A stretch of DNA of 64,000 bases from Gammaproteobacteria bacterium (GTDB lineage Bacteria > Pseudomonadota > Gammaproteobacteria > Xanthomonadales > SZUA-36). Below are positions 1-57,509 of this stretch, piece after piece. Numbering within the stretch: position 1 is the stretch's first letter; each line of letters begins with the position of its first letter. The notes below the pieces were generated by a model, which was not told the origin of the DNA, made no database searches, and worked only from the letters and a program-made list of their open reading frames with translations. The position numbers and the translations under genes were made by a program. Where the stretch lies: positions 1-64,000 of the forward strand of contig JAJFLB010000063.1 in assembly GCA_021772915.1 (NCBI GenBank). Direction: 5' to 3'.

Positions 1-78
1 TGCACCGGCTTTGTTGCCTTGCTCCAACAAGCGTAATGCTTCGAGTTTAAATTCCTTGCTAAATCTTTTGCGTTTCAT
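1..78 (-). CDS. IS3-family transposase OrfA, N-terminal part
   Basis: Translation from the ATG at 78 on the minus strand gives MKRKRFSKEFKLEALRLLEQ followed by GNKAGA, then runs off the window. This is the helix-turn-helix start of the HTH_Tnp_1 OrfA proteins of IS3-family elements, which bind the terminal repeats and are joined to the OrfB integrase by frameshifting. An AGGAG ribosome-binding site sits just upstream at about 86-91. Only 26 codons are visible, so whether the element is intact cannot be judged. Confidence 0.75.
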   Translation of the reverse strand, partial: MKRKRFSKEFKLEALRLLEQGNKAGA

Positions 79-139
79 TGGACATCTCCTCGGGGTATTG
101 TCCCCTTTGTTTGATGTCCGATAAACTCGGGTTAGTCCA
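1..139 (-). mobile_element. End of an IS3-family insertion sequence
   Basis: The left edge holds the 5' end of an insertion sequence read on the minus strand. It contains the start of an OrfA-type transposase and, outside it, a terminal-repeat-like stretch that on the minus strand begins TGGACTAACCCGAG. The boundary at 139/140 is set by the neighbour: from base 140 rightwards a RAYT reading frame is open without a stop (DEEVTRRWMQIF), so the element appears inserted in that gene. The rest of the element and its other end lie outside the window, so target duplication and length cannot be checked. The family call rests on OrfA similarity. Confidence 0.75.
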
Positions 140-922
140 GACGAAGAAGTCACAAGACGTTGGATGCAGATATTTACCGGGCCGTTGCTGATACATCAAT
201 ACCTGGGCAATGCTGAATTGACCACCATTGAGCTTGAACGGGTTGCTGAACTATTTACGACCTGGCGAACTCGATTGTGTGATCTCTCCTGGTTCATGCG
301 TTGTATCAATGAACCCATTGCACGCCTTGCCAACCGGGAAGACCATTGCAGCGGTAGATTCTGGGAAGGTCGCTTCAAGTCCCAGGCGCTGCTGGAGAAG
401 GTGAGACGGGTAACCCGTCGAGAGGCTGGCCTGGGCCATGCACGGGCCGTATTGGCCTGTATGGCCTATGTGGACTTAAATCCCATTCGTGCAGCCATGG
501 CAAAGACACCAGAACAATCGGATTACACATCCATTCAAGAACGCATACTACGGCCAGAAGACTCCATCCTGCGGTCCTTTGCTCCACAAGATGAGGATGG
601 TATTCCATTCAGCCTCAAAGACTATTTGGAACTGGTGGATTGGGGAGGCAGGGAGGTTAAACGCTACAAGCGGGGTTACATTCCGGCTGATGCTCCACCG
701 ATCCTGACCCGACTAAGGATGGATGCTGCGCCGGTGCTGGATTACCTTGCAAAAGATGAGCATGCGTTCGGTGCGCTGGGGCCGGTGAGTATGCTTAAAG
801 CTTTTGCCAATTCAGTTGGTCGAAAATTTATCAAGGGCCACGCTATTGGAAACAGGCTCTGTCCAGAGCGTTTGCTGCAACCAGCCCTTAGAAGTTGTCC
901 AGCCGTGCACTCAAACGCCTGA
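140..922 (+). pseudogene. RAYT (REP-associated Y1 transposase), 5' truncated by the IS
   Basis: This is the C-terminal two thirds of a Y1/IS200-like transposase of the long (about 320-aa) gammaproteobacterial type. Recognisable blocks are WFMRCINEPIARLANRED, GRFWEGRFKSQALL and LACMAYVDLNPIRA. The frame is open from the IS boundary at 140; the first ATG is 164. The N-terminal part with the HUH metal-binding motif is missing, so the protein should be inactive. A 15-residue insert (VRRVTRREAGLGHAR, about 405-449) interrupts the usual join between ALL and the ACMAYVDLNPIRA block. The 3' end runs 35 bp into convergent comM and its last residues look unrelated to the family, so the tail may also be damaged. 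Related enzymes are linked to REP sequences, and REPs occur elsewhere in this window. Confidence 0.8.
405..441 (+). repeat. Palindrome plus 24-bp motif inserted in the RAYT gene
   Basis: Bases 405-419 form a perfect palindrome, GACGGGT-A-ACCCGTC. It runs straight into a motif (417-440, GTCGAGAGGCTGG...GGGCCATG) that reappears at 57397-57420 with one mismatch, immediately before a REP pair. Together they make up the in-frame insert in the transposase. This looks like a small repeat unit that landed in the gene. Confidence 0.5.
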
Positions 923-2399
923 AAGCAATTGCTTCGGCGAGATGCTCGGTACGGATTTCAGTGGCCTGGTCCAGGTCTGCGATGGTGCGTGACACCTTCA
1001 GGATACGGTGGCAGGCACGCGGTGACAGGTACAGCTGCTCAACGGCATGTTCAAGCAGACTCAGTGATTTTCCGTGGATACGGCAAAACTGCTCTATCTC
1101 GCCGTTGTCGAGTAAAGCATTGGCTTTGCCGGCACGATCCGATTGCACTCGCCGCGCTTCGATCACCCGCTTCCTGACGATGGCAGAGCATTCTGAGTTA
1201 CCCCTGGGTGCATTCAATATCGACGTCTTGGGCCGTAATACCTCAATTTGAATATCGATCCGGTCGAGTAACGGGCCGGATATCCTGCTGCGGTAACGCT
1301 GGATTTGTTCGGCGCTGCAATTGCAGCGGCCGCTGTCATCACCTGCCATGCCACACAGACAGGGGTTCATTGCCGCCAGCAGCTGAAACCGGGCAGGAAA
1401 GGTAGCTTGCCTGGCTGCCCTTGAGATGACAATAGAGCCGGATTCGAGTGGTTCGCGCAGGACTTCAAGTGCGTGTCGGCCGTACTCGGGCAACTCGTCC
1501 AGAAACAGGATCCCATTATGTGCCAGTGATACCTCACCGGGTCGGGGACGCGATCCGCCCCCGGCGAGGGCAACGCTACTGCAGGAGTGATGTGGTGTTC
1601 TGAATGGGCGCACACCCCAGTTATGACAGTCCAGACCGGCGTGACTTACAGATGCAAGGGCGGCAGTTTCCAACGACTCCTGTTCTGTCATTGGCGGCAA
1701 GATACCGGGCAATCTTGAGGCCAGCAAAGTTTTACCGGTTCCGGGGGGGCCGGCCATCAACAGGTTGTGGCCCCCCGCAGCCGCAATTTCCAGAGCACGC
1801 TTTGGGCCAGGTAATCCAATGACATCGCAAAGGTCAGGCGGGGCGGGAACCTGCAAGCAGGTAACGGGCTCGCACGACTCAAGTTTACTCAGGCCACTGA
1901 GGTATTTGGAAATCGCCAGCAACGAGCGGCCATGGTAATACCCGTCACCTTTTACCAGGGCTGCCTCGGCTGCATTGGCTCGTGGGACAATCAGGGATCT
2001 GTTGGCGTCGCGGGAACGGATGGCTGCCGGTAATACCCCCCGTACCGCGCGCAGACTTCCGTTGAGGGACAGTTCACCGAGGAACTCGTAGCCATCGAGG
2101 GCTCCTCCCGGTACTTGCCCGGAGGCTGCAAGGATCCCAACTGCAATGGGCAGATCAAAGCCACCGCCGTCTTTGGGCAGGTCGGCTGGTGCGAGAGAAA
2201 TCGTGATACGGCTTTGTGGCCACTTGAATCCTGAATTGATTAAGGCCGCCCTCACTCGGTCTTTGGATTCCCTGACGGCTGTCGCTGGCAGCCCAACCAT
2301 GGACATGGTTGGTAATCCGCCGGACAGGTGTACCTCGACAGTGACCAGGGGCGCTTCGACCCCAACACACCCGCGACTGTATATCAGAGACAATCCCAC
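888..2399 (-). CDS. comM: ComM / YifB family AAA+ ATPase (Mg-chelatase-like)
   Basis: ComM is a hexameric helicase that extends branch migration when incoming single-stranded DNA recombines during natural transformation. The 503-residue length is normal. The N-terminal ChlI-like domain comes first (MGLSLIYSRGCVGVEAPLVT). Walker A GPPGTGKT lies at about 217-224 and a Walker B region GILFLDELPEY at about 293. The conserved HHSCSSVALAGGG block and a C-terminal Mg-chelatase domain follow. The last 35 bp overlap the RAYT remnant on the other strand. With the pilMNOPQ operon in the same window, this fits a host able to take up DNA, though com genes for uptake are not seen here. Confidence 0.95.
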   Translation of the reverse strand: MGLSLIYSRGCVGVEAPLVTVEVHLSGGLPTMSMVGLPATAVRESKDRVRAALINSGFKWPQSRITISLAPADLPKDGGGFDLPIAVGILAASGQVPGGALDGYEFLGELSLNGSLRAVRGVLPAAIRSRDANRSLIVPRANAAEAALVKGDGYYHGRSLLAISKYLSGLSKLESCEPVTCLQVPAPPDLCDVIGLPGPKRALEIAAAGGHNLLMAGPPGTGKTLLASRLPGILPPMTEQESLETAALASVSHAGLDCHNWGVRPFRTPHHSCSSVALAGGGSRPRPGEVSLAHNGILFLDELPEYGRHALEVLREPLESGSIVISRAARQATFPARFQLLAAMNPCLCGMAGDDSGRCNCSAEQIQRYRSRISGPLLDRIDIQIEVLRPKTSILNAPRGNSECSAIVRKRVIEARRVQSDRAGKANALLDNGEIEQFCRIHGKSLSLLEHAVEQLYLSPRACHRILKVSRTIADLDQATEIRTEHLAEAIAFRRLSARLDNF

Positions 2400-3094
<695 letters not shown>

Positions 3095-3140
3095 GCAGCA
3101 TGGATAAGCCCAACAGGACAGGTGTGATCGGTCCGGGCGT

Positions 3141-3721
3141 GTGCGTGTGTTAATGGTGAAACGTCTGCAAGCTGCCGATTTTGTGAATACGCCGGTATCA
3201 TGTGGCACTAAGGGGGTAGCTAATGGTGCATTGGCTGTAATGGCCGGTGGTAAATCCGCCAATATAGTGCGAATTATGCCAGCCTGGACGCAATTTCAGT
3301 ATCTGTTAACCACATGGGTCACGAGGGCCGTGGCCGGGCGACCGCGGCGACTAATATGACCATGATTGCAGGAACAGTTGACGTCGTTTGTGAATTACCT
3401 GTACTTGCGAAGAAACTAAATCTGTGTTCGGTACGTCTATTATCTGTAGTGGGCTTGGGAGCAGCAGGTAACCGGCTCCCGACGTATCGTGGCAAAACCT
3501 TGTTGGAGGACAGCTTTGGCGTTGGCTTTAAACTGTCCTTATGGTTGAAGGATCTAACTATTAACCGGGCCTTGGCACAAGAATTGAATATCAATATGCC
3601 AATGGCAGAAGCCGTGATCACGGATTACGCCAGGCTCATGGAATTGGGTGATGGAGATAGCGATATTTCCGGCCTGATACGCTTGAAGCGTGACACAAAC
3701 ACAATACAATGTGAGCATTGA
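3141..3721 (+). pseudogene. Remnant of a 3-hydroxyisobutyrate dehydrogenase-family gene
   Basis: Two frames together recall the middle and C-terminal parts of beta-hydroxyacid dehydrogenases (MmsB/GarR family). The first (from 3141) reads VNTPVSCGTKGVANGALAVMAGG, matching the family's DAPVSGGTKGA...G block. The second (3314-3721) reads VLAKKLNL, then FGVGFKLSLWLKDL with the family's conserved GFKL...KDL block, and ends GDSDISGLIRLKR. A frame change lies between about 3290 and 3360. The N-terminal Rossmann domain (GxGxMG) is missing, so no working enzyme can be made. No intact copy lies in the window. The spot is where amtB often sits after glnK. Confidence 0.65.
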
Positions 3722-57385: not shown

Positions 57386-57396
57386 GTTGGATACCG

Positions 57397-57420
57397 GTCG
57401 AGAGACTGGCCTGGGCCATG
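57397..57420 (+). repeat. 24-bp motif shared with the RAYT gene
   Basis: GTCGAGAGACTGG...GGGCCATG is the same as 417-440 with one mismatch (23/24). It directly abuts the REP pair that starts at 57421, so it may be part of the mobile unit or the sequence RAYT acts on. Confidence 0.5.
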
Positions 57421-57509
57421 ATGGTTGTAGGACCGACGAATTAATTCGTCGGGAACCTGCAAAAGCCTGAACAATTCCCGACCAGCAAGCTGGTCGGTCC
57501 CACAACCAT
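57421..57509. repeat. Inverted pair of REP elements (BIME)
   Basis: Two REP hairpins face each other. The first (57427-57457, plus) is GTAGGACCGACGAATTAATT... with a perfect 20-bp palindrome at 57433-57452. The second (57475-57503, minus) is GTGGGACCGACCAGC-TT-GCTGGTCGGGAAT. Outside them, ATGGTTGT (57421-57428) and ACAACCAT (57502-57509) also pair. The unit fills the space between convergent sufT and fadE. Such pairs are the mobile form of REPs in other gammaproteobacteria. Confidence 0.85.

Follow-up and report, generated by a model that had tools for sequence, protein, structure and literature searches.

A 42-nucleotide two-hairpin repeat inserted in frame in a RAYT-like gene of a gammaproteobacterium

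Comparison with described palindromic repeats

The RPEs of Rickettsia are palindromic repeats that lie in frame in unrelated protein genes (PMC10969869, PMC3733652) and measure about 150 bp (PMC10969869). REPs have also been described in genes, including that for DnaE2, and inside palindromes; those of the CGTC type, described without a dedicated transposase, carry CGTC at one end, a stem of 8-9 bp with AT pairs first and an unpaired tail that is mostly CCA (PMC3733652). A guide logic has been described for REPs and TnpA-REP, and the spread of REP-like palindromes has been called poorly understood (PMC8266576). Bypassed inserts occur in Magnusiomyces mitochondria, and in T4 gene 60 GGA is the take-off codon of the bypass (PMC5009743).

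Non-autonomous elements of the IS200/IS605 type bear hairpins and insert 3' of a short target with no duplication, such a one-sided 5' target being typical of IS200/IS605-type insertion. Elements of this type show an orientation bias towards the lagging strand, and at the ends of IS608 a linker lies between hairpin and cleavage site. MITEs have terminal inverted repeats and a target duplication. For the IS110 and IS607 types, a two-base core shared by both ends is expected.

The element considered here lies in a RAYT-like gene within a stretch of 64,000 nucleotides (hereafter the window, C60:1-64000) of a 4.68 Mb genome in 71 contigs (G000). Its copies align over 42 nucleotides without gaps and share two hairpins backed by compensatory changes. 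RPEs are the closest known kind in behaviour: like them, the present element forms in-frame palindromic inserts in unrelated genes and is absent from homologues (42 bp in the RAYT-like gene, 126 bp in a kinase-like gene and 42 bp in DnaE2). It differs from RPEs in its 42-bp length, two unequal hairpins, GGA target and self-nesting, and in its location mostly within other repeats. Like GTAG and CGTC REPs, it consists of small dispersed hairpins, some in genes (DnaE2 too) and some inside palindromes, but its consensus (GAAGGTGAGACCGG...) contains no GTAG and it lacks the CGTC-stem-tail design, since its stem is 6 bp (GACCGG/CCGGTC) and its last three bases, CCA, pair within hairpin 2; it is, moreover, a fixed 42-nt unit whose ends and target are set by empty sites. 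Hairpins, insertion 3' of a short target and the lack of duplication are shared with IS200/IS605-type non-autonomous elements, from which it differs in that no transposase is tied to it, no strand bias is seen and the 3' hairpin is terminal rather than subterminal. A MITE with terminal inverted repeats was rejected because the ends, GAAGG...GGCCA, are not inverted repeats and the RAYT, kinase-like and DnaE2 sites have no duplication. As a short block within coding sequence, the element resembles the bypassed inserts known from Magnusiomyces mitochondria and from T4 gene 60, of which the latter also involves GGA. The present insert, however, is 42n long and readable, so that no bypass is needed, and its 3' end has no landing GGA.

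Palindromes lying in frame, in DnaE2 too, have thus been described before. No description of a 42-nt two-hairpin unit with a GGA target and self-nesting was found in the literature covered: CTGGCCTGGGCCA occurs in no paper of the open-access collection searched, and no such element appears in the titles and abstract starts of the papers listed for keywords, which were short lists from larger sets, subscription papers being outside this scope.

The insert and the gene that carries it

Table 1. Features of the window relevant to the element.
Feature	Position	Strand	Basis
42-bp element, in-frame insert of 14 codons	397..438	+	comparison with empty homologues; 14-column gap in 16 aligned homologues
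Target GGA, kept in the empty site	394..396	+	empty homologues read CTGGATGAACG; GGA 5' of 70/88 simple insertions
Hairpin 1, GACGGG-taa-CCCGTC	405..419	+	helix columns 9-14/18-23; both-sided changes in 6/6 pairs
Hairpin 2, TGGC-ctgg-GCCA, last base = 3' end of element	427..438	+	helix columns 31-34/39-42; both-sided changes in 3/4 pairs
5'-truncated RAYT-like (Y1 HUH) open frame carrying the element	125..922	+	open frame; 88% identity to residues 78-330 of the full C4 copy
Partial element copy (element positions 17-42), adjoins REP pair	57393..57418	+	sequence; 23/24 match to 417-440
GTAG-type REP pair, outside the element, adjoins partial copy	57427..57503	.	REP pattern at 57427 (+) and 57491 (-)

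Nucleotide comparison places the insert precisely: empty same-genus homologues read CTGGATGAACGG or near it, and the window reads CTGGA-[42 bases]-TGCACGG, with one base ambiguous at the junction. A 14-column gap is seen in all 16 RAYT-like homologues aligned with the two insert-bearing copies (C4 and C60). These 16 homologues prove the proposal of an earlier note that a repeat has been inserted in frame in a transposase-like gene; its length of 45 bp or 15 residues (397-441) gives way to 42 bp and 14 codons, an A-to-C difference directly 3' of the insert making it seem longer. The perfect palindrome GACGGG-TAA-CCCGTC at 405-419, also reported in that note, is present, as is the 23/24 identity between 417-440 and 57397-57420. 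The 24-mer does recur, but it is the right half of the 42-bp element. A genome-wide search had been proposed for the 24-mer; made on G000 with the 18-nt core of the motif, it found 67 matches with no more than 2 mismatches, the reversed pattern giving 4, which excludes chance at the level of the genome. The window by itself is weak evidence, since its two motif matches (at up to 3 mismatches) are reached in 4 of 100 shuffles.

A full-length copy of the gene, encoding 334 aa and carrying the same insert, lies at C4:187776-188777, the window gene being a 5'-truncated remnant. The two genes differ with dN 0.052 and dS 0.417 over 234 codons, which suggests that the insert-bearing gene was under purifying selection for some time. 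Over the tract 300-620 they are about 97% identical (309/320), against 70% to 95% in bins outside it, so that the insert may have spread between them by gene conversion. The shared segment extends 3' of the C4 gene, where 2835-3321 of the C4 locus (L010) is 93% identical to window 888-1374; this duplicated segment is the 3' end of the window gene at 888-2399, presumably a Mg-chelatase/ComM-like gene. At the contig start, the minus strand of window 1-135 resembles the first residues of an OrfA (MKRKRFSKEFKLEALRLLEQGNKAG), which we take to be of the IS3 type, and an insertion sequence here seems to have removed the 5' part of the RAYT-like gene.

The RAYT-like protein has the HUH motif as HYH at residues 71-73, with H71 and H73 at least 90% conserved in the alignment. 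Its predicted structure (mean pLDDT 64) is consistent with a Y1 fold, the best fold matches being IS200/IS605 TnpA, with TnpA-REP 4er8 at rank 29; E-values are 0.009-0.08, none being at or below 0.001. The NCBIfam model REP_Tyr_transpos matches L096, an empty homologue, with 2.3e-10 and the C4 copy with 7.6e-5, neither of which reaches the cut-off, and searches of Pfam and of PDB sequences gave no match. Around the insert the pLDDT is about 33-40, and the model thus says nothing on tolerance of the insert. Among 80 named contigs, the closest by RAYT is an Oceanospirillales MAG, SZUA-36 (77%).

Structure, target and distribution of the 42-nt unit

Window 380-460 matches 50 places in G000, each nested copy being counted on its own. 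Loci from 12 genomes contained 154 matches; a proper left end is present in 124, among which 92 copies are distinct. Of these 92, all but L240 and L256 were aligned, and the remaining 90 form a gapless 42-column alignment with the consensus GAAGGTGAGACCGGGAACCGGTCGAGAGGCTGGCCTGGGCCA and fixed ends, GAAGGTGA...GGCCA. Within the two hairpins (columns 9-14/18-23 and 31-34/39-42) 95.8% of cells are paired, and 9 of the 10 pairs have changed on both sides. The covariation score of 0.319 was reached by none of 500 shuffles (mean 0.138), slid controls giving 0.050 or less. The window copy has its own compensated change in hairpin 1 (GACGGG/CCCGTC).

By arrangement, the 124 copies comprise 88 simple ones, 32 nested with another copy and 4 in tandem. 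Copies nest in one another and in other palindromes, the self-insertion site being GGTGAGA^CCGG, and composite copies contain additional left units of 10 nt and right units of 32 nt, as would be expected from self-insertion at this site. Left and right units are equal in number in 14 of 31 composites; in the 17 where they are unequal, extra slippage or deletion is needed. On the minus strand of L249 (G008), four 42-bp units stand head-to-tail within a single GTTCA-GGA^TGAAC hairpin.

The element is carried by host repeats of many kinds. Those seen in several genomes are long palindromes whose stems vary and whose centre contains GGA-tipped hairpins of the CAGGGATG type, for example at L238 894-985 and about L037 471-640. 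For 20 loci Rfam gave no match at gathering score, none to a CsrB/RsmY-type decoy RNA included (RsmY reached 22 bits against a gathering score of 57).

GGA stands directly 5' of 70 of the 88 simple copies. When the 88 sites are collapsed into 38 flank families, 29 have GGA and 33 have GA, GGA being found elsewhere in the flanks at 46/1672 positions (2.8%). The 3' side follows no strict rule, with T first in 21 and G second in 27 of the 38 families. Under a strict criterion, an empty counterpart exists for 50 of the 88 simple sites, in 16 of the 38 families, and the junction of the best counterpart of each family ends in GA in all 16 and in GGA in 13. As this criterion requires a gapless match across the junction and is blind to duplications or deletions, the absence of either rests on the existence of such matches together with three gene cases; among the matches listed by a looser search, some contain gaps.

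An in-frame element with empty homologues occurs in three gene families: the RAYT-like gene and DnaE2, each with 42 bp, and a kinase-like gene, with 126 bp. None of the three sites has a target duplication, the element is in sense orientation in all three and two different frames are used; 42 being a multiple of three, the protein frames stay open. In the kinase-like gene of G005, 126 bp or 42 codons represent three nested units 3' of CAGGA, and homologues without the insert are found in eight other genus genomes and three family genomes, G004 having no match. In dnaE2 (NCBIfam error-prone polymerase), G004 and G008 have 42 bp at one common site. Over the matched region the length is 858 nt in seven other genus genomes, 900 in G004 and 909 in G008, the 9 further bases of G008 lying elsewhere, apart from the insertion site; the regions of G011 (906) and G014 (873) are empty at the site and longer for other reasons. 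The poorly resolved dnaE2 tree does not place G004 and G008 together, and the shared insertion may represent either one old event or two independent ones. Tolerance of the added 14n residues is presumably what lets the insert persist in genes. Decayed IS91-type remnants also carry antisense or near copies on three contigs: C64 (Y2_Tnp, 9.7e-8), C47 (Y2_Tnp beside it) and C68, identified by likeness only.

The element was found in 12 of 41 genomes searched, its own included: 9 of 10 genus genomes, 3 of 15 others of the family and none of 16 from the rest of the order. When 398 genomes from across the order were searched with a covariance model, 94 had a match at E <=1e-4. These clearly add G057 and G111 within the family and, with shorter versions, G129 and G185 of another family (E about 1e-12 to 1e-13); numerous single hits between 1e-4 and 1e-8 were treated as background because the model E-values are rough. 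The shorter version in L333 (G185; AAGGTGAATTGCGAAGCAAGAGAGGGCGGCCTGGGCC) lies near a CTACATGGATGTAG hairpin. A single strong model match in another family (G039, L332 about 1490-1550; 47.6 bits, E 8e-17) reads antisense in a short frame which looks IS91-type, Pfam giving nothing for its 32 residues; such a fragment is a possible carrier between families. No element match was found in plasmids, nor any match to one exact element pattern in viral contigs.

Possible routes of mobility

Comparison of these copies establishes that the unit is dispersed, has fixed ends and inserts into itself, that GGA mostly stands immediately 5' of it, and that homologous places either have or lack a block of exactly 42 bp. 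On this basis we think it somewhat probable that the unit is a non-autonomous mobile element, moved in trans and joined behind a short 5' target. An enzyme acting in trans would recognise the folded single strand of the element, which would then be joined behind the target as is done by Y1 HUH transposases (IS200/IS605 and TnpA-REP types); the mobiliser is perhaps such a transposase. The fixed short 5' target without duplication (GGA in 29/38 families, exact empty sites) agrees with IS200/IS605 behaviour. Two features do not: insertion shows no lagging-strand bias, orientation agreeing with local GC skew at 21 of 46 sites and at 11 of 22 where skew is strong, and hairpin 2 runs to the extreme 3' end, leaving no room for an IS608-like cleavage-site linker. 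Searches for RAYT, Y2_Tnp and PF00078, and comparison with IS200 ends in G005, tied no mobiliser to the element; by eye, the ends of a clear IS200 in G005 (L283) are unlike it. A longer autonomous form was rejected, the left-end pattern hits inspected in G000, which were all but a few 3-mismatch ones, being normal, nested or decayed copies.

Movement in trans by another DNA recombinase (Y2 IS91-type, IS110-type, serine or tyrosine) seems unlikely to us, although a short fixed target without duplication would suit it and Y2 transposase matches are common in G000 (14) and G006 (16). Y2_Tnp has no match in G001, G003 and G004 despite element matches there, and the 16 matches of G006 stand against one element match; the Y2 transposase was rejected as partner since it does not correlate with the element across genomes. 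Furthermore, both ends lack a common two-base core, one base only being ambiguous.

In some cases the target is itself a hairpin loop, as in GCACA-GGGA^TGTGC. In 5 of 38 families the site is enclosed by a stem of 5 or more base pairs (0.45 expected, maximum 3 in 2000 shuffles), and target loops of the type CA-NGGA-TG occur in 6 of 38. In 791 kb of G000 the most frequent tetraloops do not include NGGA, so that loop preference is confined to some host families. A bolder proposal, which we regard as rather doubtful, is that the 42-nt unit is the complete substrate of a hitherto undescribed transposition system that reads GGA in a hairpin loop (CANGGA^TG); palindromes would then be landing pads for palindromes, and proteins would gain 14-residue modules. 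The consensus RUACARGGAUGU is that of CsrA, and CsrA/RsmE proteins bind such a motif in RNA. The target CANGGATG (6/38 families) resembles this motif, a likeness noted here with no relevance implied.

Spread at the RNA level, in which the element would reverse-splice into GGA loops of transcript hairpins and then be copied into DNA, is improbable. The CA-NGGA-TG loops, the sense orientation in three intact gene families and the one-sided G-U type changes found in the element helices would all fit it, but the element lies on the strand of the gene 5' of it in 25 of 39 cases only, by rough ORF calls. Moreover, no reverse transcriptase (PF00078) match was found in G000, G001, G003, G004, G007 or G008, six of the seven copy-rich genus genomes (the exception being G005), which lowers the RNA route.

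The reading that the earlier note had entertained, with the element as a REP or REP-flank motif that entered the very RAYT by which it is mobilised, is very improbable. The element does occur twice in a RAYT-like gene (C4 and C60), and GTAG REPs lie near 5 of 53 motif copies in 1.25 Mb of G000. In that sample, partly chosen around element copies, only 5 of the 59 clusters of GTAGGACCGACGA-type (GTAG) REPs have the motif within 150 bp. Nor is it supported that the motif belongs to the window's REP pair: a 157-aa RAYT at C8:93748 (L272 1465-1938), with GTAGGACCGACGAGCT-type REPs on either side of it, is the likely partner of the pair at 57427. By eye, the large RAYT genes (about 320 aa; L096-L099, L112, L113) have flanking repeats of their own, of the GGACA.CCA ... 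CCTACAA / TGGGTGTCC type. In a scan of 115 RAYT loci (15 + 80 + 20), the sole copies of the element were those within the C4 and C60 genes; none lay outside a gene, where a cognate RAYT would be flanked by its repeat. RAYT presence does not track element copy number, G001 and G008 (assemblies 88% and 77% complete) having 15 and 13 element matches and no RAYT at the thresholds used. The few REP neighbours, the other RAYT with these REPs, the lack of flanking copies at 115 loci and the many kinds of host repeats that carry the element all speak against self-insertion into its mobiliser.

A reading without mobility, in which the inserts would be copying slips or normal variable loops and larger host repeats would carry the repeats along as they spread, is scarcely credible. 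A small number of host-repeat families do hold many of the copies (the two largest with 18 and 11 sites), but 38 flank families are represented, 16 of them with exact empty counterparts, different sites are occupied within one host repeat, and the RAYT-like, kinase-like and DnaE2 cases also speak against it.

Many empty and filled pairs define the ends, target and insertion product of the element to the base, so that a candidate mobiliser could be tested with a 42-nt substrate. The precise insertions in this little-known bacterial group offer a clear view of how tiny repeats spread. The in-frame cases show that a DNA element adds modules of 14n residues to proteins, including an error-prone polymerase, as RPEs do in Rickettsia.
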